Assembly: GCA_030583865.1 (NCBI GenBank) | Contig: CP129479.1 | Location: forward strand, 942,744 to 1,006,743 | Direction of reading: 5' to 3' | Length of the DNA: 64,000 nt | Origin: Thermodesulfobacteriota bacterium | GTDB taxonomy: Bacteria > Desulfobacterota > GWC2-55-46 | Shown here: positions 15,960-32,379 of the stretch, piece after piece | Position numbering within the stretch: position 1 is the first letter of the stretch | How the letters are laid out: the number at the start of each line of letters is the position of its first letter | Translations under genes and position numbers: made by a program | Notes under the pieces: generated by a model | The model's input: only the letters and a program-made list of their open reading frames with translations | Database searches by the model: none | What the model was told of the DNA's origin: nothing

Positions 15960-15988
15960 TTGACAGTGTACGGTCCTGAAAGTATAAT
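15960..15988 (+). promoter_or_regulatory. Perfect-consensus sigma-70 promoter at the head of the phage-like cluster
   Basis: TTGACA (15960-15965), a 17-base spacer and TATAAT (15983-15988): both hexamers match the consensus exactly. Transcription would begin near 15995, 48 bases after the ychF stop, and read toward the cluster. An intrinsic terminator lies at 16017-16068. Confidence 0.85.
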
Positions 15989-16016
15989 TTTTTGCACCCG
16001 ACATTCGACCGCGTAT

Positions 16017-16068
16017 AGCTTCTCTCCGCTTCGGGCCTCAAGCGCCTGAACCAGAGAGGAGCTTTTTT
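16017..16068 (+). terminator. Leader terminator/attenuator of the phage-like cluster
   Basis: AGCTTCTCTC (16017-16026) pairs with GAGAGGAGCT (16054-16063, one G-T), with an inner CGCTT/AAGCG stem, followed by six T. It is about 22 bases after the predicted start of transcription and before the first gene, so transcripts would end here unless antitermination occurs. Alternatively promoter and terminator delimit a small RNA of about 75 bases. Confidence 0.75.
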
Positions 16069-16122
16069 CAGGCCGTGTGTGTTCGTATTACGCACTAAAA
16101 ATGCAAAGGGGGAGGGGGCGAA

Positions 16123-16389
16123 TTGACGAGGAACTGCTGCGATCCGGAGGTTTTTTACGAGGGGCTCAGGCATTCGGGGGTGGAGATAAGAGACCTGCTC
16201 TGGCCGCTGTCATGCCTGAGCGCAAGGGAAAGGGCGGTCTTCACCGAGTACCATTACTGGAAGACGCACATGAAGGTCATCGCTGAGAGCCACAGAATCT
16301 CACTCGGGAGGGCGTATGAGATACTCTACAGGGCAGAGGAGAAAATCGCGGCTTCAAGGACACAGGAAGAGAAGGAGAAAGCCGGTTGA
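16123..16389 (+). CDS. Small sigma-70 region 4-like HTH protein, probable late-gene regulator
   Basis: An 88-residue protein starting at TTG 16123 behind a GGGGGAGGGGG ribosome-binding site. Residues about 33-76 (LSARERAVFTEYHYWKTHMK, then VIAESHRISLGRAYEILYRA) follow the pattern of sigma-factor region 4: a helix beginning LSxRER, a turn and a recognition helix. No region 2 is present, so it is not a full sigma factor. Small region 4-like activators (ArpU/RinA type) precede terminase genes in many siphophages, and the position here matches. Role as activator of the packaging and structural genes is inference. Confidence 0.65.
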   Translation: MTRNCCDPEVFYEGLRHSGVEIRDLLWPLSCLSARERAVFTEYHYWKTHMKVIAESHRISLGRAYEILYRAEEKIAASRTQEEKEKAG

Positions 16390-16420
16390 GGCCACGGAAA
16401 AGCCCAAAGAAGAGCCGCCG

Positions 16421-16603
16421 GTGAGCCTTGTGGACTTCAAGATCATCAAGCAGTACCAGCCGCTCGGCGATATACTCGACAGCATGCGCATTTATGGTTA
16501 CAGGGGCGGTATAGAAGAGCTGCTGAACAGGCCGTGGAACCCTTACGGGGATAGTTTTCAAGACTGGACTGCAAACGACATCGAAATGAAAGAAGGCAAA
16601 TAG
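16421..16603 (+). CDS. Small hypothetical protein
   Basis: An open frame encoding about 60 residues from GTG 16421, beginning VSLVDFKIIKQYQPLGDILD and containing GYRGGIEELLNRPWNPYG. The frame is open back to ATG 16316, but that start would overlap the preceding gene by 74 bases with a basic, non-protein-like stretch. Codons just before 16421 (EATEKPKEEPP) do look coding, so the true start is uncertain. I recognise no family. It is followed by a strong terminator, so with the HTH gene it forms a short early unit upstream of the terminase genes. Confidence 0.5.
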   Translation: MSLVDFKIIKQYQPLGDILDSMRIYGYRGGIEELLNRPWNPYGDSFQDWTANDIEMKEGK

Positions 16604-16628
16604 GAAGACATATAGCGCGATTGGAAAA

Positions 16629-16658
16629 AGGCCAGGCATTCAGCCTGGCCTTTTTTTT
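16629..16658 (+). terminator. Intrinsic terminator within the cluster, before the packaging genes
   Basis: AGGCCAGGC pairs perfectly with GCCTGGCCT around ATTCA and runs into eight T. It separates the two small leading genes from the terminase and structural block. Confidence 0.9.
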
Positions 16659-16691
16659 GTCTCCGTACAGAATAACTTTTGAGCTTTTCCT

Positions 16692-16934
16692 GTGAACCTA
16701 CCGGAGGTTAGCGCAGGCCGGGTAGAAGCATTACACCATATGGCATCAAGGGAGCGGGAGGTGGCGTATGGGGTCTGGGGCCAGCGCGGAAAAGAAATCG
16801 CCCGGGTATTACAGGAGGGAGCATCAAGGGTCCTCCTGAGGGAGCCGGAGGCGTGCATGGAATGCAACAGGGTCTTCGTGAGCCTCTATCCGATAAGGAG
16901 CTGCAGGGAGCACGAGGGCCTTGATGAGATATGA
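16692..16934 (+). CDS. Small protein with a C-x2-C-x12-C-x2-H zinc-ribbon-like motif
   Basis: An 80-residue frame from GTG 16692; ATG 16740 is an alternative start giving 64 residues. Neither has a strong ribosome-binding site. The C-terminal third has CMEC and, 12 residues on, CREH, a spacing expected of a small zinc-binding knuckle. The middle is Arg/Glu-rich and helical. I recognise no family. It sits just before the terminase small subunit, where phages often keep small HNH or DNA-binding proteins; the HNH catalytic motif is absent. Confidence 0.5.
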   Translation: MNLPEVSAGRVEALHHMASREREVAYGVWGQRGKEIARVLQEGASRVLLREPEACMECNRVFVSLYPIRSCREHEGLDEI

Positions 16935-16957
16935 AGAAAGCGGCACGGGGTTGATTG

Positions 16958-17395
16958 GTGAAAATAGACTGGAAGGCTGTAAAAAGGGGCTACCAGGGCG
17001 GTATGGGCGCGCCTGAGCTCGCAAAAAGGCACGGGTGCAGCGCCGAGACCGTTCGCAAAAAGGCAAGGAAAGAGAACTGGAGCAGAAAGGAGCTCGAAAA
17101 GAGCGCTGCAGGCACGGATGCCGGGGTTGACGCCGCGGCAGACCACAGGACGCTCCTGAACGGGGTGAGGAGGAGGCTCGTAAAAGGGCTCGAGAACGCG
17201 GACCTGAAGCTGGGGCTCGAGGAGCTCAGGGTAGCGAAGACCGCGCTGGAGGTACTCTCCGACTACCGGAAGGAGGAGGAGCTTGCGCTGGGGCTCGGGA
17301 GCGGGAGAGAAGATGAGCACTGCAGTGCGCTTGCCGCCGAGATGGCTGAGGCTACGGCCCCATCCGGAGCAGATGAGGCTCTGGAACGAGAATAA
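16958..17395 (+). CDS. Terminase small subunit-like protein
   Basis: A protein of about 145 residues. The N-terminus has a helix-turn-helix typical of small terminases (VKRGYQGGMGAPELAKRHGC, then SAETVRKKARKENWSRKELE), which binds DNA for packaging. The middle (about 60-110) is helical and could form the oligomerisation core, and the tail is acidic. GTG 16958 is preferred because it lies 6 bases after GGGGT; TTG 16955 is just upstream. It overlaps the start of the large terminase gene in another frame. The call depends on the HTH plus adjacency to TerL. Confidence 0.75.
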   Translation: MKIDWKAVKRGYQGGMGAPELAKRHGCSAETVRKKARKENWSRKELEKSAAGTDAGVDAAADHRTLLNGVRRRLVKGLENADLKLGLEELRVAKTALEVLSDYRKEEELALGLGSGREDEHCSALAAEMAEATAPSGADEALERE

Positions 17396-18584
17396 GAGGT
17401 TTGCGGTCGTCCCGGCGGGGAGAAGGAGCGGGAAGACCGAGCTCGCGAAACGTAAGCTCGTCATAGGCCTGAACGAAAAAAAGAACTGGACCGATCCGAA
17501 GTATTTCGCGGCGGCCCCGACGAGGGAGCAGGCGAAACGGATATTCTGGAAGGACCTGAAGGAGCTCACGCCGCGCGAATGGACAAAGAGGGTTTACGAG
17601 ACAGACCTGTGCATAAAGACCGTTTTCGGCAGCGAGCTGTGGGTCGTCGGGGTTGATAAGCCGGAAAGGGTCGAGGGAGTGCCGTGGGACGGCGGGGTGC
17701 TCGACGAGTTTGCCAACATGAGGGAGACCGCCTGGACTGAGCACATAAGGCCGGCCCTCTCCGACAGAAAAGGGTGGTGCTGGTTCATAGGCGTGCCCGA
17801 AGGGCTTAACCACTATAAGGAGGTCGCGGACTATGCCGCGAGCGGAAGCGACCCGGACTGGGGCCTCTACACATGGCCGTCCTCTGAAATCCTGCCGCAG
17901 GAGGAGGTAGAGGCGGCAAGGAGGGTGCTTGACGCAAAGACGTTCAGGCAGGAGTACGAGGCGAGCTTCGAGGGTTCCTCAGGCCGGGCATATTACGCAT
18001 ACGACCCGGCGAAGCACGAAGACCAGGGGCTGTCGATAAATGAAACATTGAGGCTTGCTGTCTGCTGCGATTTCAACGTGGACCTCTGCGTGTGGGAAGT
18101 CGCGCAGACCGACGGCAGGTCGGTTTGGGTGCTGGACGAGATAGCCTTGAGAAACACGAATACGGCAGAGATGGGAAAGGCGCTCCTTGCGAAATACGGA
18201 GGACACAAGGCAGGGCTGGCCATATACGGGGACGCCGCTGGGATGAGCAGGTCCACGGCGGGCATGAGCGATTACGCCATACTCGACAGGATGGGTCTAA
18301 GGACGCAGAGGGTGAAGAGAGCAAATCCGGCAGTGCGGGACCGGGTGAACGCCGTGAACGCGATGCTTGAGAGCTCGAACGGAGATGTGAAGCTGTACAT
18401 CCACCCGAGGTGCGCTCACTTAAGGAAGGACTTCGAGACGGTCGAATGGCGTTCTGGAGGCATGGAGATAAATAAGTCCGACCCGGAGCGCACCCACGCG
18501 TCTGACGCGCTCGGGTACTTTATGGAGTACGAGTTCCCGCTGAGGCTCAACAGGCCGGACCCGGCAAAAAGGTTCTATAAGTAG
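17313..18584 (+). CDS. Terminase large subunit (packaging ATPase/nuclease)
   Basis: Motor protein that pumps DNA into preformed capsids and cuts it. The ATPase domain has Walker A PAGRRSGKT (residues 34-42), Walker B GGVLDEFANM around 130, and the coupling motif FIGVPEGLNHY. The RNase H-like nuclease domain has CCDFNVD (about 251-257), YGDAAG (about 304-309) and a late HASDALGY aspartate, the expected three acidic positions. ATG 17313 follows GGGAGAGA; ATG 17373 would remove most overlap with TerS but leave little before Walker A. All catalytic residues look intact, so the motor is probably functional. Confidence 0.93.
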   Translation: MSTAVRLPPRWLRLRPHPEQMRLWNENKRFAVVPAGRRSGKTELAKRKLVIGLNEKKNWTDPKYFAAAPTREQAKRIFWKDLKELTPREWTKRVYETDLCIKTVFGSELWVVGVDKPERVEGVPWDGGVLDEFANMRETAWTEHIRPALSDRKGWCWFIGVPEGLNHYKEVADYAASGSDPDWGLYTWPSSEILPQEEVEAARRVLDAKTFRQEYEASFEGSSGRAYYAYDPAKHEDQGLSINETLRLAVCCDFNVDLCVWEVAQTDGRSVWVLDEIALRNTNTAEMGKALLAKYGGHKAGLAIYGDAAGMSRSTAGMSDYAILDRMGLRTQRVKRANPAVRDRVNAVNAMLESSNGDVKLYIHPRCAHLRKDFETVEWRSGGMEINKSDPERTHASDALGYFMEYEFPLRLNRPDPAKRFYK

Positions 18585-18624
18585 CGAAGCGGCATTTGAC
18601 GAGTAAATAAAAGGAGGGGCGCGA

Positions 18625-19986
18625 ATGACCCATGAGGAGCTTGAAAGGACGCATCCGCTTTACGCTGGCCACATAGACGAATGGCTCTTCTATGTCCGTT
18701 CCTACTTCGGCGGCAGGATGTACAAGACGGGCGACTACCTCCTGCAGCACCCTTTCGAGAGCGCGGCTAACTACGCCCGGCGAAAGGAGACGAGCTACTA
18801 CTACAATTATTGCGGCCCGATAATCGATATCTTCGTCTCCCACCTTTTCAGGAAGGACGCGCTCCGCGACTTCGGGTCGCTCGCCGGGGACAGGCTCTTC
18901 CACATGTTCCTTTGCGACGCCGACCTCGAGGGAAATACGTTCAAGTCGTTCATGCGAGAGGCGCAGCGGTTCGCGAGCGTTTACGGAAGGGTATCGATAG
19001 TTGTCGATAAATCGCAGACACTCGCGGTCACCAGGGCCGAGGCCGAGGATTTCGGCATAAGGCCCTATATCGCGCTGGTTACGCCGGAGAACCTCCTGGA
19101 CTGGTCGTTCATAAGGCTCCCCTATTCCGGAAGGCCCGTACTCGACAGCGTGAAAATAAAAGAGGCCCCGGATACCTACAGGATATGGAACAGGGAGGGC
19201 TGGGAGCTCTGGCAGGCCGCGGAGGGAGAGGCTGCGCTCCTGGACGCGGGCTGGCACGGGCTCGGCGAAGTGCCGCTCGTGAACCTCTATAACAAGCAGT
19301 CCGGTACGCGGATGGCAGGCGTTTCCGACATCCAGGACATAGCCGACATAAACAGGAACATATACTACCTCTGCAGCGATGCCCGGGAGATAATCGAGAA
19401 CACGGCCTTTCCCATGCTGGCCGTCCCGTACTCGCGCGGGGAATCCGGCGAAAGGGAGCTCGGCCCCAGGAACATCCTCCAGTTCGACCCGGCAGAGCCG
19501 AACTCCAGGCCGTACTGGCTCGAGGCGCCGCACTCGTCGCTTTCAGAAATACGGGAGTGGGTGCGGCACGACATTGAAGAGATATACAGGATTGCGAAGC
19601 TCGGCGGTGTGAAGTCCGCCGAGGACTACGGGAGCGTGCGTTCGGGGGTCGCGCTCGAACTCGAGTACCAGCAGCTTTATTCCACCTTGAGCGAAAAAGC
19701 CGACAACATCGAGCAGGCGGAGACCAGGGTCCTCGAGCTATGGGCCAAGTGGGAGGGAAGGAAGTTCGACGGGCACATAGACTACCCGGATGATTTCTCC
19801 GTAAGGGACCTGGACAGGGAGCTTCAGAACGCCTTGAAGGCGCAGACAGCGCTTGTAGGCTCGGAGACCTTCATGAGGGAGCTTCAGAAGAGGATAGCGC
19901 ATTCGGTCCTGCCCAAGGCAGGCGAAGACGTGATGTCGAGGATATACGAGGAGATAGAAAAAGGCGGCGCGCCGGTTAAGGAATAA
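18625..19986 (+). CDS. Portal protein
   Basis: A 453-residue protein directly after TerL, the standard place for the dodecameric portal through which DNA enters the head and to which the tail joins. The N-terminal region has YFGGRMYKTGDYLL and Tyr-rich helices, the middle has a mixed wing-like part, and ISDIQDIADINRNIYYLCSD resembles the long helix region of SPP1/HK97-like portals. The C-terminus is helical and charged. I infer the function from size, position and fold pattern rather than from a sharp motif. SD AGGAGG precedes ATG 18625. Confidence 0.8.
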   Translation: MTHEELERTHPLYAGHIDEWLFYVRSYFGGRMYKTGDYLLQHPFESAANYARRKETSYYYNYCGPIIDIFVSHLFRKDALRDFGSLAGDRLFHMFLCDADLEGNTFKSFMREAQRFASVYGRVSIVVDKSQTLAVTRAEAEDFGIRPYIALVTPENLLDWSFIRLPYSGRPVLDSVKIKEAPDTYRIWNREGWELWQAAEGEAALLDAGWHGLGEVPLVNLYNKQSGTRMAGVSDIQDIADINRNIYYLCSDAREIIENTAFPMLAVPYSRGESGERELGPRNILQFDPAEPNSRPYWLEAPHSSLSEIREWVRHDIEEIYRIAKLGGVKSAEDYGSVRSGVALELEYQQLYSTLSEKADNIEQAETRVLELWAKWEGRKFDGHIDYPDDFSVRDLDRELQNALKAQTALVGSETFMRELQKRIAHSVLPKAGEDVMSRIYEEIEKGGAPVKE

Positions 19987-20061
19987 AAAGCCTGCGCGGC
20001 GCCGGGCCGCCCAGCCACCCCGGGGCGCGGTTTGAAAAAAGGGGGTTCAAAGGAGGCAGGC

Positions 20062-20724
20062 ATGGTTGACGAACTTAAAACGGTTGAAGGCGACGGCCAT
20101 AGCGGCAGCGAGGAAGCCCGAAAGGTGATGTTCCTCCCGGAGCAGCAGGCAAAGGTGCAGGAGCTCATAGACGAGGCGTACAGGAAGGCCTACGCAAAGG
20201 CCCAAAAGGGAAAGGGCGGGAGCGAAGAGGTGGAGAAGTTAAAGGGCGAGGTCGACAGGCTCAGGGAAGAGAGGAAATCGGCCGCGCTCTTGAGGGCCAT
20301 ATCCAGGCACAACGTGGTCGACGCCGAGGAGGTATCAGAGCTCGTAAAACACCGGGTGAGGATGGAAGAGGACGGGAGCATGAGGGTGCTCGGCGACTCG
20401 GGGGCCGTGCGCATAAATACGTCCGGCCAGCCGATGACGCTTGACGAGTTCGTCGTTGACTGGCTCGGCGAGAGGCCGCACCACCTGCGGGCATCCGCCG
20501 GAACTGGGGCTGGTTCACAAGGCGCAAGGTTCGGCGCCTGGACAGCGCGGCATAACCTCTCGGACCCTGCCTCCTGGCGCACCATGCCAAGGGAGGAGCT
20601 CGACAGGCTTCTCAGGGAAGGATTGAGCGTTCAAGGCTCTGCCGGGCAGACCTACAGGTTCAGGGACGTGAAGAACCCTTTCCTGGAGGCCCGGAGAAGG
20701 AAGTTCAACACCGCGGCCGTCTGA
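20062..20724 (+). CDS. Capsid scaffolding-like protein
   Basis: A 220-residue highly charged protein with a coiled-coil-prone segment (about residues 30-85: QQAKVQELIDEAYRKAYAKA through EEVEKLKGEVDRLREERKSA), followed by a Gly/Ala-rich linker and a basic end. Small helical proteins of this kind located just before the major capsid gene are usually internal scaffolds. No protease motif is visible. ATG 20062 has a perfect AGGAGG at 20051-20056; the TTG at 20032 is in frame but lacks one. A separate head-maturation protease is not apparent anywhere in the cluster. Confidence 0.65.
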   Translation: MVDELKTVEGDGHSGSEEARKVMFLPEQQAKVQELIDEAYRKAYAKAQKGKGGSEEVEKLKGEVDRLREERKSAALLRAISRHNVVDAEEVSELVKHRVRMEEDGSMRVLGDSGAVRINTSGQPMTLDEFVVDWLGERPHHLRASAGTGAGSQGARFGAWTARHNLSDPASWRTMPREELDRLLREGLSVQGSAGQTYRFRDVKNPFLEARRRKFNTAAV

Positions 20725-20753
20725 CGGCGCGGCATCAAAGGAGGAAAGTCTGA

Positions 20754-21617
20754 ATGGCAAATGAAGTGACGACCGCCGCCGGGTCCGCAGGAGAGCTGGT
20801 GGCCGCAGAGATAGTATCGAGGCTCGTGATAGACGCGGCATACGCCGAGGCCGTGATGCCGCCGCTCGTAAGGGTTGCGGACATAAGCGGGGAGTCGACG
20901 CTCGCGGTCGAGTTCCCGAAATGGCCGCTCCTCATGGCCGCCGACCTCACCGAGGCGACGGACATGAGCAATACGGCGGTAAACACCACGTCTACGCTCG
21001 TTACCGCTGACGAGGCAGGCATCCTCATCACCGTGTCCGACATGCTCCTCAACGGGGCCGGTCTCGGCGGGCTCGAGCCCTTCGCCGAAGAGCTCGGCAA
21101 GGCGCTCGCGAACAAGATAGACGCGGACATCCTGTCGAGCGCGGCGAGCTTCACGAGCTCGGTCGGGACCTCGGGCTCGGACATGGACGAGTCGCATTTC
21201 CTCTCGGCCATCTACAAGCTCGAGCTGGGGAACGCCAAGGGCCCGTTCGTAGCGGTGCTCCACCCGTACCAGGTCAGTAATCTCAGGACCGCGATAGCGG
21301 CATCGACCGGCGCGGTCTGGGGAGGCCCTTCGGTCCCGGCGGCGGAAGTGGGCTCGCTTGGCACCCTTTACGGCGTGGACATTGTGCAGTCCACGAACTG
21401 CGCGTCGATAAACCTGGACGCGGACAGGCTCGGGGTGATGATGCCCATGGGGAACCAGTCGGGTCTGGCCTACGTGCTCAAGACCGGGGCAAAGACCGAA
21501 TTCCAGAGGGATGCATCGCTTCGCGCAACCGAGATAGTCGTGACCGCGCTTTACGGCCACGGCTGCGTGAACGCCGCATCCGGCGGCGGCGTGAAGATCA
21601 TAAGCAAGCACGAGTAG
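20754..21617 (+). CDS. Major capsid protein (HK97-fold-like)
   Basis: A 287-residue protein with the typical appearance of a HK97-fold capsid: an acidic/small-residue N-terminus, the E-loop-like stretch SGESTLAVEFPKWPLL, a long helix-rich part (EELGKALANKIDADILSSAA), VAVLHPYQVSNLRTAI, and a final beta-rich domain including YGVDIVQSTNC and TEIVVTALYGHGCVNAASGG. Its size, high Ala/Gly/Ser content and place between scaffold and connectors support the call. SD AAAGGAGGAA precedes ATG 20754. A strong stem-loop without a T-run follows. Confidence 0.85.
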   Translation: MANEVTTAAGSAGELVAAEIVSRLVIDAAYAEAVMPPLVRVADISGESTLAVEFPKWPLLMAADLTEATDMSNTAVNTTSTLVTADEAGILITVSDMLLNGAGLGGLEPFAEELGKALANKIDADILSSAASFTSSVGTSGSDMDESHFLSAIYKLELGNAKGPFVAVLHPYQVSNLRTAIAASTGAVWGGPSVPAAEVGSLGTLYGVDIVQSTNCASINLDADRLGVMMPMGNQSGLAYVLKTGAKTEFQRDASLRATEIVVTALYGHGCVNAASGGGVKIISKHE

Positions 21618-21623
21618 AAAAGA

Positions 21624-21648
21624 GGCGGAGGGGCCAAGCGCCCCTCCG
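21624..21648 (+). other. Stem-loop after the capsid gene
   Basis: GCGGAGGGG pairs perfectly with CCCCTCCGC around a seven-base loop, 7 bases after the capsid stop. No T-run follows, so it probably blocks 3' decay of the capsid mRNA or partly attenuates downstream transcription rather than terminating it. Confidence 0.6.
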
Positions 21649-21666: not shown

Positions 21667-22047
21667 ATGGCACTTGATCCCGGCGCATTGAAAGAGAAAG
21701 GATATATGCCTATAGCCTACAACGGCTATGCTTCCATAGCCTGGCAAGGCGAGCTGGCGAATGACCTCTGGATGTGGACAGGGCAGTATATCCAGGGGCC
21801 GGCGGGCAGGATGTCATTGCAAACTGTCAGGATACGAGAACTGAAAGAGGCCGCGCTCAGGTATTGGAGGGACGGCTGGGTCCCGCTCAAATGGGACCAG
21901 GGCCTACTTCAGAGGATGGAGCACGCGCTCAGGGAGCACAAGGGGCTCAAGGCCGCCGGAGTACGCTTTCCTGAGGGACGGTTCCTTCCGGACCCGAAAG
22001 AGCTGCCGGATATCAACCGGGAAGAGGCTCCGGCAGAGGAGGCTTAA
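21667..22047 (+). CDS. Hypothetical virion-cluster protein
   Basis: A 126-residue protein, unrecognised. It has Trp/Tyr-rich stretches (YASIAWQGELANDLWMWTGQ; LRYWRDGWVPLKWDQGLLQR) and an acidic end EEAPAEEA. The position after the capsid gene suggests a head-completion or decoration role, but nothing in the sequence proves it. ATG 21667 lies 8 bases after AAAGGA. Confidence 0.6.
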   Translation: MALDPGALKEKGYMPIAYNGYASIAWQGELANDLWMWTGQYIQGPAGRMSLQTVRIRELKEAALRYWRDGWVPLKWDQGLLQRMEHALREHKGLKAAGVRFPEGRFLPDPKELPDINREEAPAEEA

Positions 22048-22217: not shown

Positions 22218-22348
22218 GGCAACCTCTAAAAGTTTAAGATTTTTCCTGCAATTAAGGAAGGGCGGGAATAAAAAGCCGAGCATAAATGTGAGCATTTTAT
22301 TCACGCCTGAGCAAAGTCCGGGGAAAATGGCAATTTTTAGATGTTGCC
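22218..22348. repeat. Palindromic repeat family A, copy 2 (inside the phage-like cluster)
   Basis: A 131-base copy with ends GGCAACCTCTAAAAG and TTTTTAGATGTTGCC and an inner stem GGGCGGGAATAAAA against ATTTTATTCACGCC. It fills the space between the 51-residue gene and the next connector gene, whose start codon (22365) lies 16 bases past it. Its presence means that this host element entered or arose inside the particle gene block after the block became resident. Confidence 0.85.
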
Positions 22349-22364
22349 TGAACGCGGAGACGAA

Positions 22365-23252
22365 ATGAGGCAGCAATTCCTTCTGAATACGCCGGACAGG
22401 TTCCAGACATATATATATGAGAGCAACAGGAAGCTCGTGCCGGATGCCGCTTTCATAACAATTTACACTCCCGGCGGCCTCCTGCTGGCCGAGAGAGCCT
22501 CCATGACGATAGCGGCCGACGGGCTATTGTCATACGAACTGGGACAGGAGGAAAACTCCATTGCGGCCCTCAACTACAAGGCAGTCATAGAGTACGCGCA
22601 TGGGGCCAATACGCATTACGCCACCATCCTTTACGACGTGGTGAGGTCGAGGCTCGGGAAGGTGGTCACGGACGAGGACCTCATGGCGGAGCTTCCCCAG
22701 CTCAGGGAATCCAATTGGAGCGTCAGGGGAGTAGCGGAGTCCGGATCGGAGGCCGAGATAACCGACACCGGATTAAAGAGGTACGGGGACGGTTATTTCA
22801 CCGGAGGGTCCGCGTATCTCCCTGCCAGGGGCGAGAGGAGGGAGATCACGGGTTTCGCTGCGGCAAGCGGGACGGTAACCGTTGAGGCCTTCCCGGAGCC
22901 TGTCTCGCCAGGAGACAGTTATATACTTTCAAGGTCTTTCGGCAAGGAGATACAGAGGGCGTTTGAAAAGCTGGAGGAGAGGCTAACGAGGCTCGGGAAA
23001 AGACCCCATCTCGTGCTCGACCCGTATGACCTGAGGGAGGCGCACATACTCCTTTCAGTCTCCGAGGCCTGCAAGGGGCTTGCCGTTGAGAGCAAGGGGC
23101 TCTGGTGGAACTTCTGGAAGGAGTATGAGAGGAAGGCGGACGAGGCCATTTCGGAGGTCACTTTAAAGTATGACCGCACCGGTGACGGCCTGATATCAGG
23201 GACGGAGGGGAGCCATAAGCTCAACAGCACCCTCAAGGCGGGCAGGAGATGA
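22365..23252 (+). CDS. Head-tail connector-region protein with an EF-hand-like loop
   Basis: A 295-residue protein of uncertain family. The N-terminal half is beta-rich (FITIYTPGGLLLAERASMTI) and includes VEAFPEPVSPGDSYILSRSF; the C-terminal half is helical. Near the end DRTGDGLISGTE matches the EF-hand calcium-loop pattern (D at 1, D at 5, G at 6, I at 8, E at 12). I choose ATG 22365, which follows GGAG; ATG 22341 would begin inside the repeat. Position suggests a head-tail adaptor or minor virion protein. It overlaps the next gene by four bases. Confidence 0.6.
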   Translation: MRQQFLLNTPDRFQTYIYESNRKLVPDAAFITIYTPGGLLLAERASMTIAADGLLSYELGQEENSIAALNYKAVIEYAHGANTHYATILYDVVRSRLGKVVTDEDLMAELPQLRESNWSVRGVAESGSEAEITDTGLKRYGDGYFTGGSAYLPARGERREITGFAAASGTVTVEAFPEPVSPGDSYILSRSFGKEIQRAFEKLEERLTRLGKRPHLVLDPYDLREAHILLSVSEACKGLAVESKGLWWNFWKEYERKADEAISEVTLKYDRTGDGLISGTEGSHKLNSTLKAGRR

Positions 23253-24900: not shown

Positions 24901-25275
24901 ATGGCCATAGTGAGTTTCGACAGCGAGAGCATCATCGATTATATGCCCGAGTATGGAGGGAACAGGGAGAGCCTGGACCCGTGCATAGTGAGCCTGAGGT
25001 TCGTCCCTTATTCAAGAGTGCAGGAATACTCGCGCCTTCTCGCGGCCAGGACAAGGGGGCTCGCAGACCAGGCAAGGATAGCGGAGCTTACGCACTCGGT
25101 CCAGAGAAAGCAGTTCGTCGAGAACGTCGAATGCATACAGGGATACTATGTAGGCGAGACCAGGGTCTCTGACCCCGGAGAGTTCTATGATACGGCGGAT
25201 ACGGACCTGGTGCTCGAGATAATAAGGGCAATGGAGTCGAATTCAAGGCTCTCGGAGGGACAGAGAAAAAACTGA
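24901..25275 (+). CDS. Tail assembly chaperone, short form (gpG-like)
   Basis: A 124-residue protein in the position of lambda gpG, between the tail tube and tape measure genes. Its last codons before TGA are AGA AAA AAC, forming the slippery heptamer A AAA AAC (25266-25272) exactly in register for a -1 shift. The protein is mixed alpha/beta with a long helix (QARIAELTHSVQRKQFVENV). These chaperones wrap the tape measure protein during tail assembly and are absent from the particle. SD GGGAGGAGAG precedes ATG 24901. Confidence 0.8.
   Translation: MAIVSFDSESIIDYMPEYGGNRESLDPCIVSLRFVPYSRVQEYSRLLAARTRGLADQARIAELTHSVQRKQFVENVECIQGYYVGETRVSDPGEFYDTADTDLVLEIIRAMESNSRLSEGQRKN
25266..25272 (+). other. 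Programmed -1 ribosomal frameshift site A AAA AAC
   Basis: In the zero frame the codons read AGA AAA AAC TGA. A one-base slip gives AAA AAA CTG ATT GCG and opens the next frame to 25673. This is the canonical X XXY YYZ form, right before the stop codon, at the site where most long-tailed phages make their gpGT-type fusion. Confidence 0.85.
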
Positions 25276-25673
25276 TTGCGGGCTTCCGCTGGGCCTTCAA
25301 GACCGCAGCCGGGAGCCCGTTTCAATGCGATAGCTGCGCCGAGATGGACAGGGAGGCCAGGAACTGCGGTAACTTCAGGGGCCTCTCCGAAGAGGCCCGG
25401 GCAGTGGAGGAATACACCCCGGGCATCACGGGGGAGCTCAAGAGAAAGCGCTGCCGGAAGGTCTTGGGCCTCGGGGGTATAAGGCTTTACGAATGCCCCC
25501 TGAGTTATTTTGACGAGGAGACGCAGAGGATAATCGGCCTTGTCTTCCGTCTTCAGGGCGCGGTGCAGTCCTACTTCGATGGAGGGCTTTCAAGCCAGCC
25601 CTGCTGGCTCGTCGAGGCAGTTGAGATATTCGAAAACGAAAGGTCCGCGCGCGAGGGAAAAGCGAATGACTGA
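25272..25673 (+). CDS. Tail assembly chaperone, frameshift extension (gpT-like)
   Basis: Reading in the -1 frame from 25272 gives 133 residues that extend the short chaperone to about 257. The extension has CDSC near its start, then a Cys 10 residues on (NCGNF) and another in YECPLSYF, a possible zinc site. ATG 25344 inside it has no good ribosome-binding site and would lose the CDSC pair, favouring production by frameshift. In lambda-like tails the T domain contacts the tail tube protein. It overlaps the tape measure start by eight bases. Confidence 0.8.
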   Translation: MIAGFRWAFKTAAGSPFQCDSCAEMDREARNCGNFRGLSEEARAVEEYTPGITGELKRKRCRKVLGLGGIRLYECPLSYFDEETQRIIGLVFRLQGAVQSYFDGGLSSQPCWLVEAVEIFENERSAREGKAND

Positions 25674-26580
25674 GAGCGAGATGAAAGTAGCTTCACTGTC
25701 AAGAGATGTCCACCCTGGGCTTGACGGCTTGAGGGAAAACACCAGGACCGCTGTCGAGGAGATAGCGTCGGAGCTTGAAAAGCTTAACGCAAAAGGCTTC
25801 AGAAGGTTCTCGTCTTCCGCGGAAAAGGACCTGCTCTCGGTCGAGAGGGCGTTTTCAGGCCTTAAGGAGACCATTGCTGGACTGCCCCGGATAGAGCCCT
25901 TGAGCGAAGGCCTCGTGGCAGGAGAAGAAGAGCGGATGAAGAGGCTCAAGGACATGAACCGGCTCCGGATGCAAGAGAAGGAGATGCTCCTGTCAGAGGA
26001 GGCCGCGCTTACGGGCGGGCACCTCCGTCAAATAGAGGATATGGAAATGGCGTCATGGGCGACGAGGCTCATGTACGCCCAGACCGCGGCCTCCATTCTC
26101 ACGAATACGCTGCAGAACCTTTTCGTAGCTACCGGGAGCAAGCACAGGGCCATGTTCGAGGCCATGAAGTCCTTTGCAATAGCAGAGACCCTGATACAGA
26201 CCTACAGGGCGGCGCAGGGCTCGTACGCCGCGCTGGCCCCTATTCCCGTGGTGGGCCCTGCCCTCGGCGCGGCGGCTGCAGCCGCCGCGATCGCCGCCGG
26301 GCTGGCGAGGGTTGAGCAGATAAGGGGCACTACCCCAAAGGGCGCGACCTCTTCAATAAGCGCGGGAGGCAGGGCCAATCCGCAGTATTCGGGAGGCTCC
26401 CCTAGCGCATACCCGGTGCCGACGAGGATCGAGGACGAAAGGCCGACCCAGTACATAACGATCCAGATATACAACCCGCTTTCTGAGCAGAACTGGCAGA
26501 AGATAATCGAGGACAACGTAATCCCTGCCATGAGGGAAGCCGGCGACAGGAACATAGCCCTCAGCATGAGGACCATGTAG
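25666..26580 (+). CDS. Short tape measure protein
   Basis: A 304-residue protein with a charged, helical N-terminal two thirds (VEEIASELEKLNAKGFRRFS; EERMKRLKDMNRLRMQEKEM) and the hydrophobic region KSFAIAETLIQTYRAAQGSY through PVVGPALGAAAAAAAIAAGL and ARVEQIRGT. That last motif is common near the C-terminal end of siphophage tape measure proteins. Tape measure length sets tail length, so a tail of only several tens of nanometres is expected, like gene transfer agents. ATG 25666 is chosen; the frame is open further back but only through the overlapping chaperone gene. Confidence 0.8.
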   Translation: MTESEMKVASLSRDVHPGLDGLRENTRTAVEEIASELEKLNAKGFRRFSSSAEKDLLSVERAFSGLKETIAGLPRIEPLSEGLVAGEEERMKRLKDMNRLRMQEKEMLLSEEAALTGGHLRQIEDMEMASWATRLMYAQTAASILTNTLQNLFVATGSKHRAMFEAMKSFAIAETLIQTYRAAQGSYAALAPIPVVGPALGAAAAAAAIAAGLARVEQIRGTTPKGATSSISAGGRANPQYSGGSPSAYPVPTRIEDERPTQYITIQIYNPLSEQNWQKIIEDNVIPAMREAGDRNIALSMRTM

Positions 26581-26595: not shown

Positions 26596-27369
26596 ATGGC
26601 GGATTGGGCGAAAATAAAATTCTTCTGGAGAAACATGCTGGGCAGCGAGGGATCGACCTTGAGCGCAAGCTCCACGTTTTCCGGTTTCGATGTGGCTTAC
26701 ATATCGAACATGATGGAGACTAACATGTGGGTCGCAGCCGATGCCGCCGGGCCGCATTACATAACGTATGACGCAGGGACAGGGAACTCGGAAGAGGCCG
26801 ATTACCTGGCCGTATCCGGGCATAACCTTTCGACAACCGGGGCGCGCGTTTCGCTTCAGCACTCGAATGACGACGAGGTCTATGAGGATGCCCTGGCCCC
26901 CTTTATGCCTTCTTCTGACAAGACGTTCGTGAAGGAATTCCCGAACCCCGGGGCATACAGGTTCTGGAGACTCGTAATAGAGGACACGACCGCGGCCCCA
27001 TGCATAACTATCTGCGCTCTCGGAACCGGGACCGAGCTCGATTACGCAACTTACTCGTTTGACCCGCATGAGGAGGAAACAAAGGCAAGCATAAATATAA
27101 GCCAGGGGGGCTACCTCGCAGGCGCGCATTCGCATTACATAGAAAGGTCGATATCGTTAAGGTTTGATGATGCGGACCCGGCCCTGTACGAGAAAATTGC
27201 CGAATGGCGAGTCTTGAGCGGGATCAAGAACTTCTTCGTCATGTGGGAGCCCTCCGGCCATCCGGAGGAGGTCTTCCTCATGAGGCCCGAGCCGAGGTTC
27301 TATAACCCCCTGAAGCAAGGAGGTAAACGCAGGGACATAACCCTTCACCTCACGGGAAGAAAGGAATAG
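26596..27369 (+). CDS. Distal tail/minor tail protein
   Basis: A 257-residue, beta-rich protein after the tape measure gene. Residues about 20-150 resemble a galactose-binding/discoidin-like jelly roll (DYLAVSGHNLSTTGARVSLQ; PNPGAYRFWRLVIEDT), and the C-terminal part (SHYIERSISLRFDDADPALY) resembles distal tail domains. Such proteins form the hub ring at the tail tip and may bind sugars. Called by synteny and fold impression. ATG 26596 follows GGAGTCAGG. Confidence 0.6.
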   Translation: MADWAKIKFFWRNMLGSEGSTLSASSTFSGFDVAYISNMMETNMWVAADAAGPHYITYDAGTGNSEEADYLAVSGHNLSTTGARVSLQHSNDDEVYEDALAPFMPSSDKTFVKEFPNPGAYRFWRLVIEDTTAAPCITICALGTGTELDYATYSFDPHEEETKASINISQGGYLAGAHSHYIERSISLRFDDADPALYEKIAEWRVLSGIKNFFVMWEPSGHPEEVFLMRPEPRFYNPLKQGGKRRDITLHLTGRKE

Positions 27370-27377
27370 GGATCTGA

Positions 27378-29192
27378 ATGGAAGACCATCGCATAATGTA
27401 TGACGAGGAGATGGTGGGGGCCGGGCACCCCGCAAAGGCCGATACGCTCAACAGGCTGGCGCTAACAGAGCACAACCCGGACGGGACGCATAGGGACACG
27501 AACGTATATCCGGACTTCCTGACCAAGGGCCCGTGGGTGGACGTGAGGGCGTTCGGGGCCGCTGACGACGGCACTGACGACAGCGAGGCCATACAGGACG
27601 CCATAGACCATATCGAGAGTCTCGGCGGCGGGACGGTTCTCCTGGGGCACAATCACGGCATAGGAAGCTCTATCGTCATTCCCGTAGGCGTAGACGTTAT
27701 AGGGCATGGAAGGGGTACGACCATTTCGATCCTGCCTGGCGCATCCCTTACGGGCGATTTCGCCATACTCGTCAACAGCACTGACGGCTCGGGGTGGACA
27801 GCCCCTTATGCGGCTGCTCCCTGCAACCGCATCGGCAACTTCAAGATAAAGAACGACAACCATGCGACCGTCACCTGCCGGGGCATGTTCGTGGCCTCGG
27901 GCGCTGAGATTTTCGACATAAGGACGGATAACCTTCACCAGACCATAAAGACGACCTCCCAATACCTCGACCTCCTGACCTTGAGGCGAATCGCCTGTAT
28001 GTACAGCAGGGGAGACGACTATCCCATAGAGATTGACAACCTGGGCGACGGCCTCGATATCTCGCAGGTAATTTTCACTGGAACGGGAGAGTGGCACTCG
28101 AACACGAAAGGGCTTTCCGTCAAGGGCTGTAACGGTGGCCAGGTCGGGAAGCTCATTGCAGGGAAGCACCAAATAGTCAACAGCGTGGGCGTAGTTTGCT
28201 CAGGCTGGCACAGCGAGGCCGAGGACGGCGTGATACTCACGATAGACAATAGCTCAGTCGTCCTCGATGGAATGTACCTCTGGGCAGGGAACGCGCCGAG
28301 AATTAAGCTCGTCTCGACGGTTGACAACCAGCATACGGTTTCCCTGCGGAACGTGAACTTCATTGTCAGGCATGACGAGATGCCGGACTCATACGACTGG
28401 TACGACTTGCAGACGCATCCGAATTTCCTCGTAACGGTCGAGAATTGCGGGAAGCTGGCCACGAAGATAGGGAACATAGCCCTTGCGGATGTGGGCGGTA
28501 TGCTGGTCAAGGACAGTACGGGAGCCGCCCTTTCCTCCTGGAACAATTACTCGCATCTCTTGAGCAAGCGCGGCGTAATAGGATACCGGGAGACCCCGGA
28601 GCTTGACCACGCCTTCGACTGCGGGAGCGGGAACATATTCGTCGTATCGGCGATTCAGACCAACGTGGCTGTCACATGGGGCGAGGCGACAGGGACTTAC
28701 TACTACAGGTGCCAGCTCCTCTATGACCCTGTGAGGATGGTGGGGGTGAGCGATTCGGGGAGCGAGTCAAGTCTTGCCCTTATCGAGGACGGAAACGGGG
28801 TCCTAATTACCATCACCTTCGGCATCCGGAAGCGGAACGCCATTTTGAGGGTCTACCGGGGAACTACTACCAACACCTATGACAAGTATGCGGACATCCC
28901 CCTCCTGGCCATAGAGCGGCTCTATGACGACGGGACGTATGTGAACGGCTACCCCTGGCAGGAAAGAAGCGCCGGGGCCGTGGACACGCTCTTTGCGGAC
29001 CCGGTTTCGATTAAGTGGGCCGGGGCCTTGCTTGAGATGCGGGGCGCGGCCTCAGACCCCACGGCAGGGACATGGAAGGCGGCGGACATTATTTATGCAG
29101 GAGCACCCACGCCAGGGGGGAAAATAGGGCGGGTTTGCGTTACCGCCGGGACACCGGGGACATGGAAGCCCTGGGGCGGGATAGACGCATGA
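27378..29192 (+). CDS. Pectate-lyase-superfamily beta-helix tail spike
   Basis: A 604-residue protein. Near residues 50-70 VDVRAFGAADDGTDDSEAIQ, continuing DAIDHI, is the hallmark start of the Pectate_lyase_3/tailspike parallel beta-helix family. It is followed by a solenoid-like region with repeated short strands (about 75-380) and a C-terminal domain with VSIKWAGALLEMRG and a Gly/Pro-rich tail. Phage spikes of this family bind or cleave surface polysaccharide. Catalytic residues cannot be assigned by eye. Location within the tail-tip genes supports virion function and implies a defined cell-surface target. Confidence 0.75.
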   Translation: MEDHRIMYDEEMVGAGHPAKADTLNRLALTEHNPDGTHRDTNVYPDFLTKGPWVDVRAFGAADDGTDDSEAIQDAIDHIESLGGGTVLLGHNHGIGSSIVIPVGVDVIGHGRGTTISILPGASLTGDFAILVNSTDGSGWTAPYAAAPCNRIGNFKIKNDNHATVTCRGMFVASGAEIFDIRTDNLHQTIKTTSQYLDLLTLRRIACMYSRGDDYPIEIDNLGDGLDISQVIFTGTGEWHSNTKGLSVKGCNGGQVGKLIAGKHQIVNSVGVVCSGWHSEAEDGVILTIDNSSVVLDGMYLWAGNAPRIKLVSTVDNQHTVSLRNVNFIVRHDEMPDSYDWYDLQTHPNFLVTVENCGKLATKIGNIALADVGGMLVKDSTGAALSSWNNYSHLLSKRGVIGYRETPELDHAFDCGSGNIFVVSAIQTNVAVTWGEATGTYYYRCQLLYDPVRMVGVSDSGSESSLALIEDGNGVLITITFGIRKRNAILRVYRGTTTNTYDKYADIPLLAIERLYDDGTYVNGYPWQERSAGAVDTLFADPVSIKWAGALLEMRGAASDPTAGTWKAADIIYAGAPTPGGKIGRVCVTAGTPGTWKPWGGIDA

Positions 29193-29262
29193 GCTTTTGT
29201 ACATGTCATTTGAGGAACGCAATTCAGGGCCGGGTAACGAGATCTCCGGCAGGGGAGCCGGG

Positions 29263-30981
29263 ATGGCGATAAGTCTCACAAAGAGATTCATGCGCGAGCT
29301 TGAGAGGGGAGTCAATTCGCCCAATGTGGTCGTGGAACTCGTTCTTGACGGCGGCACGGTCCGCTTCGGGTACCACGGGAGGAACGGGCACCCGATAATA
29401 AGGTTCCTGGCAGGCGGAGAACACGCTGCCGACGGGAGCGCGTTCGCAGCCGGAAGCGACGAGCTACCGGGTGTTGTACCGGCGCTCAAGGCTGTATCCT
29501 CGCTACAGAACAGGCTAGACCCCAGGGCCGGGTACTCGACCAGAGGACAACTTACCGCAATCATATCCGGAAGGGAGAACTTTACTCCCATTATTTCGGG
29601 GAAGTTCCTGAAGAACAGGCGAGCCGTCCGTAAGGACGGGTTCCTGGCCCCTGGTTTCACCTATCCCGACTACGCAGCGACGTTCTCGGGGAAGATTATA
29701 GACTGGTCCAGAAAGGGCGACGAGCTTACCATAGTCATCGCTGACGACTTGAAGGACGCGTCCGCCAAGATACCCGTAGAGAGCGAGTCCAGGACCGAAG
29801 CGATCGATTACACCGGGATGAACCCGGTCGACATAATGGCCGATATCCTCATAAACCGGCTCGGCATAGACCAGTCTTTTGTAGACCTCGGCGGCTTCGA
29901 GCAGGAGCGGGACATGTGGCTTGCCGGATGGCGCTTCGACAGGGTGCTCACGGAACCCAAGGAGGCCAACCAGTACCTGAACGAGCTGCAATCAGAGACT
30001 AATTCGTTCATCGTCCATGACGGAGAAAAGGTCTCGCTCAAGGTCTTCGCCCCGCCAGCGCCCTGGCAGGATGTAGAGGAATGGACGGACAGGACCATAC
30101 TTGAGGGCTCCTTCAGCCTGAAGAGCGGCTCGCGCGAAAGCTTCTACAACAGGATAGTGGTCTATTACGACTATGACGAGTCCGGCGGGGACAGGGAGGA
30201 GAACTTCGAGTCCGCCATAATCGCGGCGGATGCTGCATCGCAGGACCAGTCCGAGTGGAACGAGGTAAGCACCAGGGTGATAAAGAGCAGGTGGATGCGC
30301 TCGCTGGCCTTTTCCCAGCCGGAAGGGATAAGCGGGTTAAGAGTCTATCATGTCTCCAAGGGCAACGGGTCGGGAGAGGGGAACCTATTTTACGACAGCA
30401 CGGCGATGGCCCTTTACTGGAGGGCGCCCGGCGGCCTTCAAGGAGAGCCTGTAAGGCTCTCGCAGGACGGCAAGTACCAGGTCTTCGATACCGACAGGAA
30501 CAGATACATACGGGTTATAGCGGTGATTTCGGAGCTGCCATACTCGGATGCGAGCGCCCCGGTCCTGATAACCGGCGGAAGGGGCGAGACGCATGCAGCG
30601 GCGCTCGCCCAGAAGCTCCTTAGCAGGTTCCGCGACCCTGTCGCCACCGCGAGCTTCGAGATAGACATGAACAGCATCGCCTTCATGGACCGGTTCATAA
30701 AACCATCCGACCTCAAGGACTGCACTACCGATGAAGCCTGTGGCATGGGAAGGACCGGCTGGGTAAGGAACCGGCTCATGCTTACGAGCGTAAGGCCGGA
30801 TTTTTCGACGCACAAGGTCTCCGTCGAGGCCGTGGAGACCAAGATGCACAGGAGATACGCCTTTATAGCCGCGTGCGGCCAGAACGATTACGGGGAAGCC
30901 TCGGGAAAAGAGAGGGCATACGGATTCGTTGGCGGGGCAGGAAACTCGACAGGCGGCGAGGACGGATATTATATCTGGTAG
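29263..30981 (+). CDS. Tail hub/tip protein
   Basis: A protein of about 572 residues, probably the central tail-tip hub (gp27/gpJ-like region). It begins with a segment typical of such proteins (LERGVNSPNVVVELVLDGGT), has AIDYTGMNPVDIMADILINR resembling the hub lateral domain, then long beta-rich repeats. The end, GGAGNSTGGEDGYYIW, is Gly/Tyr-rich. I choose ATG 29263, preceded by AGGGGAG; TTG 29197 and ATG 29203 lie upstream in frame without as good a site. Call based on domain pattern and synteny. Confidence 0.65.
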   Translation: MAISLTKRFMRELERGVNSPNVVVELVLDGGTVRFGYHGRNGHPIIRFLAGGEHAADGSAFAAGSDELPGVVPALKAVSSLQNRLDPRAGYSTRGQLTAIISGRENFTPIISGKFLKNRRAVRKDGFLAPGFTYPDYAATFSGKIIDWSRKGDELTIVIADDLKDASAKIPVESESRTEAIDYTGMNPVDIMADILINRLGIDQSFVDLGGFEQERDMWLAGWRFDRVLTEPKEANQYLNELQSETNSFIVHDGEKVSLKVFAPPAPWQDVEEWTDRTILEGSFSLKSGSRESFYNRIVVYYDYDESGGDREENFESAIIAADAASQDQSEWNEVSTRVIKSRWMRSLAFSQPEGISGLRVYHVSKGNGSGEGNLFYDSTAMALYWRAPGGLQGEPVRLSQDGKYQVFDTDRNRYIRVIAVISELPYSDASAPVLITGGRGETHAAALAQKLLSRFRDPVATASFEIDMNSIAFMDRFIKPSDLKDCTTDEACGMGRTGWVRNRLMLTSVRPDFSTHKVSVEAVETKMHRRYAFIAACGQNDYGEASGKERAYGFVGGAGNSTGGEDGYYIW

Positions 30982-30990
30982 GAGACCATC

Positions 30991-31440
30991 ATGGCAGACC
31001 CGACGTATGACTGGAACGAGATAACCGAGGCGCAGACCGACGCGGACAGCCCCATTGACACGGCCCTTATGGAGGGGATAAGGCGGAACCTTGAGCATCT
31101 GAGGGAGTGGATGGGCGAAAGCTTTACCCCGGCAAGGGACCACGACCATGACGGGATGAACAGCAAGAGCGTCCTGCTCGCCGATTCGGTCGTGACGGTT
31201 GCCAAGCTCAACCTCATGAGTGGGAGCTTTTCAGCCGCGAGCGGGGGCGACTTCTACATAAGCGTCAGCAGGTATTCCCATGTCCCGAGCCTTACCAAGC
31301 TCGGCTCGGTTTACAATGTGCAGCTCTTTCTCCAGACGGACATGCATTCCACGGTTTCCGATATGCACGAGGTGCTCGTCCGTGCGCCGATCGGAAACGG
31401 CGAGACCTTTCACGTATTCTGGGACTATCACGCAGGCTAA
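30991..31440 (+). CDS. Tail fibre-like protein
   Basis: A 149-residue protein starting MADPTYDWNEITEAQTDADS and containing RDHDHDGMNSKSVLLADSVV, a motif seen in trimeric tail-fibre shafts and attachment proteins. The remainder is beta-rich. It is probably a small fibre or spike accessory. It sits between the hub gene and a second small virion-type gene; no enzymatic motif. Confidence 0.55.
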   Translation: MADPTYDWNEITEAQTDADSPIDTALMEGIRRNLEHLREWMGESFTPARDHDHDGMNSKSVLLADSVVTVAKLNLMSGSFSAASGGDFYISVSRYSHVPSLTKLGSVYNVQLFLQTDMHSTVSDMHEVLVRAPIGNGETFHVFWDYHAG

Positions 31441-31449
31441 GGAGGCGTT

Positions 31450-31776
31450 ATGTATTCAGAGGTTTTACACGACGGTTCTGGCAACATCAAGGCATGCTAC
31501 TGCGCAGACACTCTGCCTGTCGAGGCAAACGCCCCGATGTTCAGGTTTACAGGGGTGCCGGACGGGTTTGCGCACGCAAGGCTCAACATAGATACTCTCA
31601 CCGCGATGGAGATAGAGGCCGGGTGCGGGACAAGGGCCGAGCTCGACGGAGGCGGCAACCCTGTGCTTGTGAACGTGGACAGGACCATGTACATAATGGA
31701 GAACTTCGTCGTGGACCTCGAAGCGGAACTCGCCCATGAGGGCCTGGTCCTCCGTGGCATAAAGAAAAAGGGGTAG
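31450..31776 (+). CDS. Hypothetical protein of the tail/lysis junction
   Basis: A 108-residue protein with beta-type composition, starting MYSEVLHDGSGNIKACYCAD and ending in a basic tail. I do not recognise it. SD AAGGAGG precedes ATG 31450. It ends two bases before the holin-like gene and may be a minor tail component. Confidence 0.55.
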   Translation: MYSEVLHDGSGNIKACYCADTLPVEANAPMFRFTGVPDGFAHARLNIDTLTAMEIEAGCGTRAELDGGGNPVLVNVDRTMYIMENFVVDLEAELAHEGLVLRGIKKKG

Positions 31777-31778
31777 AC

Positions 31779-32012
31779 ATGGACGCTCAGGGGAGGAAGG
31801 CTGCGGAGGAGATGGCGGAACTAATAGCGGAGAAGCTCTCGTCGAGTTTCGGGGCCTGCGCCTTTACGCCTTCCGAGCAGGAGGCCGTGAAGGACCTCCT
31901 TAGGACCAAGAGGAACGCGGTAAGGGCCTTCCTCTGGATATGCGGGGCGGTCATGCTCTGGATAATCAAGGACGTATACGTTTACCTTGCGGGGCATCTC
32001 ACGCTCAAGTAG
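31779..32012 (+). CDS. Single-helix membrane protein, holin-like
   Basis: A 77-residue protein with one clear transmembrane helix (about residues 47-70: AVRAFLWICGAVMLWIIKDV), a long helical, acidic N-terminus and a short C-terminus. Its place directly before the endolysin gene is the usual place for a holin, which would open the cytoplasmic membrane for lysis. The single helix fits class III or membrane-anchor types. Function is inferred from context only. Confidence 0.55.
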   Translation: MDAQGRKAAEEMAELIAEKLSSSFGACAFTPSEQEAVKDLLRTKRNAVRAFLWICGAVMLWIIKDVYVYLAGHLTLK

Positions 32013-32025
32013 GAGACGATACCCT

Positions 32026-32379
32026 ATGGAGCTTTCAGAGAAGCAGAGGCGGTTCACGGCCCGGGTGGCCGAGCTTATAAGGTTCGCTTACTCGAACGGC
32101 CTCGAGCTCACACTTGGAGAGGCATACAGGACAGAGGAGCAGCAGAAGCTCTATCTAAAATCCGGGAAAAGCAGGACCATGGCCTCGCCCCACAGGGAAC
32201 GGCTAGCGGTGGACCTTAACCTCTTTATCGGGGGAAAGTACGTCTCGGACGGGGAGGCCTACAGGCCGCTCGGCGAGAAATGGGAGTCGCTCGGTGGAAG
32301 GTGGGGCGGCAGGTTCGGCGTGAGGAAAGAGGAATACGGGACAAAGGTCGGCTGGGACGCAAACCACTTCGAGTATTAA
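32026..32379 (+). CDS. M15-family peptidase endolysin
   Basis: A 117-residue L-alanyl-D-glutamate or D-Ala-D-Ala type metallopeptidase that would cut peptidoglycan cross-links or stems. The zinc-site residues are visible: SPHRERLAVD (H56 and D63) and the C-terminal WDANHFEY (H114), matching the SxHxxGxAxD and xxxWHFE patterns of the family, although the usual Gly is Arg. The ELTLGEAYRTEEQQKLYLKS segment is also typical. ATG 32026 follows AGGAGA. It is compact, without a binding domain, and ends the cluster. Confidence 0.85.
   Translation: MELSEKQRRFTARVAELIRFAYSNGLELTLGEAYRTEEQQKLYLKSGKSRTMASPHRERLAVDLNLFIGGKYVSDGEAYRPLGEKWESLGGRWGGRFGVRKEEYGTKVGWDANHFEY

Follow-up and report, generated by a model that had tools for sequence, protein, structure and literature searches.

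A Probable Domesticated, Gene-Transfer-Agent-Like Particle System with a Dispersed Regulon in an Order of Uncultured "Deltaproteobacteria"

The window analysed here is a stretch of 64,000 nucleotides (positions 942744-1006743) of a closed 2.75-Mb chromosome from GWC2-55-46, a class of Desulfobacterota treated in PMC13386864. At about 16.1-32.4 kb it holds an intact head-tail module of a tailed particle, with every gene on the + strand, flanked by ychF and DUF2905-lpxC. This block is probably (about 0.78) a domesticated caudoviricete particle system resembling a gene transfer agent (GTA), passed on vertically within one order of uncultured "Deltaproteobacteria" and provided with a dispersed regulon of its own. 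What carries this interpretation is vertical descent throughout the order, purifying selection, intact motifs of the packaging enzyme, a conserved terminator followed by a paired sequence element (the twin-box) at the clusters, and copies of that element at unlinked fibre and toxin genes in relatives.

Organization of the Locus

Matches to PHROGs and Pfam were obtained for the small and large terminase subunits (TerS and TerL), portal, scaffold, major capsid, tail tube, tape measure, spike, hub and M15 peptidase. The gene list of an earlier note, made by reading the sequence without database searches, is thus essentially right, including the common strand and the chromosomal neighbours. No open reading frame (ORF) of the block matched an integrase, repressor or replication protein in either database, as that note had also stated. 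Its remark that codon habits resemble those of the flanks holds as well: the correlation is r = 0.97, and GC content is 58.4% in the block against 58.7% in the flanks. A chance origin is excluded, because the block is conserved across an order.

Of the 29 relatives aligned, at least 28 keep the catalytic motifs of TerL, previously judged intact: Walker A GRRSGKTE, Walker B WDGxVLDE and the nuclease aspartate motifs CCDFNV, YGDxxG and THAxDA. The frameshifted tail chaperone is likewise real, since its -1 slippery heptamer, A AAA AAC, lies immediately before the stop codon and is present in every relative checked. The PHROG match of TerS spans an N-terminal helix-turn-helix (HTH) region, for which the Pfam match (HTH_23) is weak. 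The holin and distal-tail labels fit by position and have no Pfam match.

The start of the block needs correction. The block proper opens with a sigma-region-4-like gene and an overlapping ORF. These are followed by a strong terminator, the twin-box, a gene for a 64-residue CxxC..CxxH protein, and terS (Table 1). Most relatives have a terminator at the matching place but with a differing sequence. The twin-box consists of two GGGGTAGAA-type boxes about 50-56 bp apart. It occurs in all 37 cluster loci, where its copies resemble GGGGTAGAATAA and GGGGTAGAAAAAAAACACCATAG, and a -10-like sequence, CATAGGGTATA, follows the second box. From this arrangement the twin-box is a putative promoter. The terminator ahead of it suggests that the structural genes stay silent unless the twin-box is active. 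In one relative (L123, G009:C1:140000-150926), the interval between the small ORF and the twin-box holds about 3 kb of additional DNA with strong hairpins.

The sigma-region-4-like protein has a mean pairwise identity of 69% over the order, and a search of the PDB gave no match for it. An AlphaFold model of the capsid protein, made from an alignment of four sequences, was poor, with a predicted local distance difference test score (pLDDT) of 29. Homologues of the unassigned structural protein carry in-frame stops in L031 and L037; L031 is part of the metagenome-assembled genome (MAG) G001, in which rpoB is likewise fragmented.

Table 1. Features of the particle block and its chromosomal neighbours (positions within the window).
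Feature	Position	Strand	Evidence
ychF, upstream chromosomal neighbour	14821..15912	+	adjoins cluster in genomes of families f1 and f7
Small protein like sigma-70 region 4, late-activator candidate	16123..16389	+	Pfam Sigma70_r4 E=0.0018 (below cut-off); PHROG 1190 1.6e-5
Small ORF overlapping the sigma-like gene, without known family	16316..16603	+	in 30 genomes; C-terminal half conserved
Intrinsic terminator between regulator genes and structural operon	16625..16658	+	GGCCAGGCATTCAGCCTGGCC and T run
Twin-box element, putative late promoter/operator	16667..16741	+	boxes 16668-16675 and 16719-16727; in 37/37 clusters; model R1 E=1.7e-12 in G000
64-aa CxxC..CxxH protein (zinc-finger-like)	16740..16934	+	last ~38 residues conserved order-wide
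Terminase small subunit (TerS), HTH at N-terminus	16955..17395	+	PHROG 1206 9.9e-10
Terminase large subunit (TerL)	17313..18584	+	PHROG 2 6.8e-33; catalytic motifs conserved
Portal protein	18625..19986	+	PHROG 145 1.7e-71
Scaffolding protein	20032..20724	+	PHROG 206 1.6e-15
Major capsid protein	20754..21617	+	PHROG 544 6.2e-13
Putative head-tail adaptor	21667..22047	+	position; identity to relatives 40-84%
Conserved structural protein, role unassigned	22341..23252	+	synteny with relatives
Putative tail terminator/connector	23249..23683	+	position, synteny
Tail tube protein	23760..24851	+	Pfam Phage_tube_2 3.4e-9
Tail chaperone, G/GT-type pair with -1 frameshift	24901..25673	+	slippery heptamer at 25266-25272
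Short tape-measure protein	25663..26580	+	PHROG 9483 2.1e-16
Distal-tail-like protein	26596..27369	+	position; PHROG 11633 (unknown function) 1.4e-7
Tail spike, pectate-lyase-like	27378..29192	+	PHROG/Pfam; varies from genus to genus
Tail hub/fibre-like protein	29197..30981	+	PHROG 11439 2.5e-14
Pair of conserved small tail-associated genes	30991..31776	+	synteny
Holin candidate	31779..32012	+	position only; dN/dS 0.04-0.08
M15 endolysin	32026..32379	+	Pfam Peptidase_M15_4 6.6e-6
DUF2905-like gene and lpxC, downstream chromosomal neighbours	32464..33803	+	synteny

Distribution and Synteny

Of 59 close genomes, 39 contain TerL, and all of these belong to the window's order. Identity among them is 62-92%, save for one weak second match in G022. 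The distributions of capsid and portal agree with that of TerL. Genomes of the same class outside the order yielded neither TerL nor portal, and TerL matches elsewhere in the phylum reach at most 35% identity. Taken whole or in part, the cluster is present in at least 41 of the 48 genomes of the order, with one copy each. This count includes clusters broken across contigs and located via ychF or the hub gene (G027, G038), many genomes of the comparison set being fragmented MAGs. The named relatives are MAGs of uncultured "Deltaproteobacteria".

About 27 loci mapped by tblastn have an identical gene order. Clusters of family f1 come after hppA-ychF; in the window's genus, and in neighbouring genera whose contigs extend far enough, lpxC lies downstream. 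Clusters of family f7 likewise come after ychF (G040, G035, G038). In families f2, f3 and f4, most clusters sit instead downstream of a DUF3108 gene, a second shared locus. The earlier note had proposed conserved synteny as a check on its reading of the block as a GTA-like or domesticated particle outside the Alphaproteobacteria; with gene order and the ychF locus conserved in relatives, that reading is supported.

The same note had regarded a clean empty site in a close relative as evidence to the contrary. Such a site exists: G003, which is basal in the window's genus, has ychF directly beside DUF2905-lpxC, and no cluster remnant was found there (L106, G003:C143). The absence is best read as a loss, because the cluster occupies the same site in the other five members of the genus, in most of the family and in nearly all outgroups of the genus. 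G003 also retains one twin-box elsewhere (G003:C49, L281).

Variable fibre- or decoration-like modules of 3-6 kb occur between the adaptor and tail genes in other genera (L050, L051, L054, L055, L063, L037); they are missing from that position in the window's genus. Two "viral" contigs from IMG/VR that bear the cluster (L037, L038) are probably chromosomal pieces of the order.

Selection and Vertical Inheritance

Within the genus, the synonymous divergence (dS) of cluster genes is about 0.2-0.3 to G001 and 0.4-0.7 to G005, the same as for ychF, hppA and lpxC. For capsid, the ratio of nonsynonymous to synonymous divergence (dN/dS) lies at 0.036-0.086; portal has 0.05-0.08 and TerL 0.12-0.14. 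Housekeeping comparators give 0.03-0.055 (ychF) and 0.045-0.07 (rpoB). Purifying selection on capsid and portal is thus on a par with that on ychF and rpoB, and the ratios for TerL and capsid bear out the second check that had been proposed.

A tree of the cluster and a tree of rpoB plus ychF, each for 23 genomes, have 14 of 20 splits in common, and the distances of cluster and host are correlated at 0.78. Over the order, the mean pairwise identity of the capsid protein (0.80) lies between those of ychF (0.74) and rpoB (0.83).

The Dispersed Twin-Box Regulon

A sequence-only model of the twin-box, built solely from the cluster copies, recovers the cluster elements and, at E<1e-6, about 45 non-cluster sites in genomes of the order. 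No such site lies in four genomes without the cluster (G017, G024, G030, G039). In 34 outgroup genomes nothing falls below 1e-4, the best match being 6.8e-4. The regulon is an addition to the earlier reading of the sequence. In relatives of the window genome, the twin-box lies upstream both of unlinked fibre modules and of cassettes that pair a peptidoglycan-attacking toxin with a putative immunity protein.

The fibre modules are an example of particle parts encoded away from the cluster. Weaker twin-box sites (E 1e-5 to 4e-3; L290, L291, L293) precede such parts in G010, G019 and G005. The genes concerned are homologous to variable fibre modules that in other genera lie within the cluster (E=8e-91, 4e-79 and 2e-33), and the set in G005 begins with a GTA_holin_3TM gene (1.3e-10).

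About 27 sites lie upstream of enzymes directed at peptidoglycan. Representative proteins gave matches to M23, Tlde1 (two), Colicin_M, SLT/Phage_lysozyme2 and Glucosaminidase; families were assigned with Pfam for these and by BLAST clustering for the others. By inspection, the toxin-like enzymes have no signal peptide, and their neighbours encode secreted or membrane proteins, which are putative immunity proteins. Two kinds of tag region, A and B, recur among the enzymes, and each is common to members of differing catalytic class. Neither tag was found in the particle proteins. Hydrolase domains related to the toxins occur in tail and head proteins of phages; no Colicin-M toxin was present in the phage genomes searched and no M23 effector in the viral contigs searched. 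The type VI secretion system (T6SS) sheath, PF05943, is found in 0 of 48 genomes of the order (an E. coli control was positive), and the toxins were accordingly rejected as T6SS cargo.

MqsR-MqsA and an AAA_21 ATPase are also among the targets. MqsR toxin genes stand immediately after a twin-box in G037:C62 (L193) and G045:C46 (L205), with MqsA too in G037. The AAA_21 gene (L261, G037:C118) is putatively of AbiEii type and possibly a defence gene. In G047:C205 (L269), a twin-box is accompanied by a weak GTA_holin_3TM match (below cut-off) and by lpxC; the main cluster was not found in this genome.

Proposed Mechanism

Small sigma-region-4-like proteins encoded just upstream of the packaging genes serve as late activators in phages (RinA/ArpU type). 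The sigma-like gene of the block is similarly placed, although its Pfam match is weak (E=0.0018), and the boxes of the present system are not confined to the cluster but recur at unlinked genes of the chromosome. Most likely, the protein would bind the GGGGTAGAA boxes as a late activator and recruit RNA polymerase. A subset of cells would respond by building small tailed heads, which the terminase would fill with DNA, mostly of the host chromosome. Preferred packaging sites are possible, because TerS retains its HTH. The responding cells would also produce the toxins and putative immunity proteins. Holin and endolysin would then lyse the cell, so that particles and toxins are freed together. 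Of this scheme, the conserved cis element and the list of its targets are observations; which protein activates it, what DNA is packaged and whether toxins are delivered are putative components.

A bolder version can be offered tentatively, as a possibility that is not favoured. It describes an armed gene transfer agent, in which one activator would govern a DNA-packing particle, polymorphic tagged toxins and their immunity proteins. The toxins would be carried by the particles or released with them, and donation of DNA and killing of non-kin would form a single programme as old as the order. The twin-box targets suggest that gene exchange and bacterial warfare may be one programme.

Several observations weigh against the interpretation as a vertically inherited system with its own regulon. 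An approximately unbiased (AU) test of the host topology gives p=0.041, a mild rejection of strict co-divergence, and G032 is the single well-supported conflict between the trees. A same-strand ORF of at least 90 residues begins within 160 bp of 34 of 39 twin-box sites, but also at 56% of random positions. The window genome has just one further twin-box (G000:C1:1865639-1865712, L219), which precedes a 45-residue ORF, with a transposase farther on. The toxin arm is therefore observed in relatives rather than in the window strain; the congener G001 has an M23 cassette at a weak element (E=0.0017). Small ORFs like that of L219 follow twin-box sites in G001 (L287) and G003 (L281).

Relation to Known Systems

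GTAs have virion proteins homologous to those of caudoviricetes, an endogenised and often multi-locus genome, and mostly vertical inheritance; they package mostly random host DNA in a head too small for their own genes and deliver it to cells (PMC9662315). Three of these attributes are found here: the virion-protein homologues, the fixed chromosomal loci together with unlinked fibre modules bearing the same element, and co-diversification with the host, apart from the conflict and the AU result given above. The system is thus GTA-like by sequence, and the label "GTA" is reserved until packaged host DNA is known. The HTH region of TerS departs from the pattern of known GTAs, in which the small terminase has no detectable DNA-binding domain (PMC11841831; an observation rather than an item of the list of the International Committee on Taxonomy of Viruses).

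RcGTA and RcGTA-like elements of the Alphaproteobacteria (Rhodogtaviriformidae) are similar in having a compact head-tail cluster (about 15 kb), vertical descent alongside the host, dispersed particle parts and dedicated regulation, and GTA_holin_3TM homologues occur in relatives of the window genome. The present system differs in lineage, in the HTH of TerS and in its toxin/immunity regulon; the likeness noted is one of layout. Desulfovibrio Dd1 and Brachyspira VSH-1/BhGTA are likewise GTAs from outside the Alphaproteobacteria, with independent caudoviricete origins; TerL matches in the phylum beyond the order are no more than 35% identical.

The toxin cassettes resemble T6SS and bacteriocin effector-immunity pairs (Tlde1, colicin M, M23) in their catalytic domains and in the neighbouring genes for secreted or membrane proteins. 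They differ in that none of the 48 genomes has a T6SS sheath gene, in their own tags, and in a cis element shared with a capsid-bearing particle. R- and F-type tailocins are also host assets derived from phage tails; here TerL, portal, scaffold and capsid are retained under purifying selection, and a tailocin was rejected on this ground.

Reviews list few GTAs outside the Alphaproteobacteria and hold that sequence alone does not separate new ones from prophages (PMC11841831, PMC12946183). The present system, conserved through an order, with dS matching that of the chromosome and a regulon of its own, offers a route to recognising domestication from sequence. In the open-access literature searched, no GTA was found in this lineage, nor any toxin regulon tied to a GTA. 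Since the twin-box joins a DNA-packing particle to toxins and putative immunity, the question of why GTAs persist becomes testable via kin discrimination and killing. The model of the element can also be used to locate all parts of such systems in uncultured genomes.

Alternative Explanations

It is rather unlikely that the particle is chiefly an antibacterial weapon, with tagged toxins on or inside it and little or no productive gene transfer. Two modular tags on enzymes with unrelated catalytic domains, adjoining putative immunity genes, the shared twin-box, the missing T6SS sheath and the kindred hydrolase domains of phage tail and head proteins all speak for such a role. Yet the strong selection on TerL, portal and capsid predicts DNA packaging, and for toxins whose tags do not recur in particle proteins, free release at lysis is simpler.

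The twin-box might alternatively be a pac site read by the HTH-bearing TerS, so that particles favour the toxin/immunity cassettes and the cluster itself. Its place just upstream of terS and its copies beside cassettes are consistent with this, but a promoter fits better, given its orientation ahead of genes, the -10-like sequence after the second box and the terminator right before it. A pac site is accordingly improbable.

A third explanation is a decaying or defective prophage remnant that is functionless today, which the earlier note had kept as a possibility. Besides the missing integrase and replication genes and the empty site in G003, broken genes in relatives point this way: the portal gene of G034 is split, and in G035 a cluster remnant between ychF and lpxC has an IS3-like insertion and a truncated TerL. 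Against it stand the retention of the cluster or part of it across the order, a capsid dN/dS equal to that of ychF, and the preservation of catalytic motifs, frameshift site, terminator and twin-box together, which make a remnant very improbable. The patchy distribution and host-independent divergence typical of prophages were not found. In the G035 remnant (L111, G035:C14:1-16000), the truncated TerL lies beside the IS3-like transposase, and DUF5675 and GTA_holin_3TM genes persist near lpxC.

Scarcely credible is an active temperate phage or satellite that inserts repeatedly between ychF and lpxC, since dS matches the chromosome, each genome has a single copy, the tree is host-like, an integrase is missing and the nearest sequenced phages are distant (TerL 45%, portal 37%, capsid 32%), a related portal in the phage-like contig G022:C16 being the one point in its favour. 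That contig (L156) has a portal 57% identical to that of the cluster but differs in its capsid and in its terminase, which is larger; it represents a related phage or a prophage fragment.

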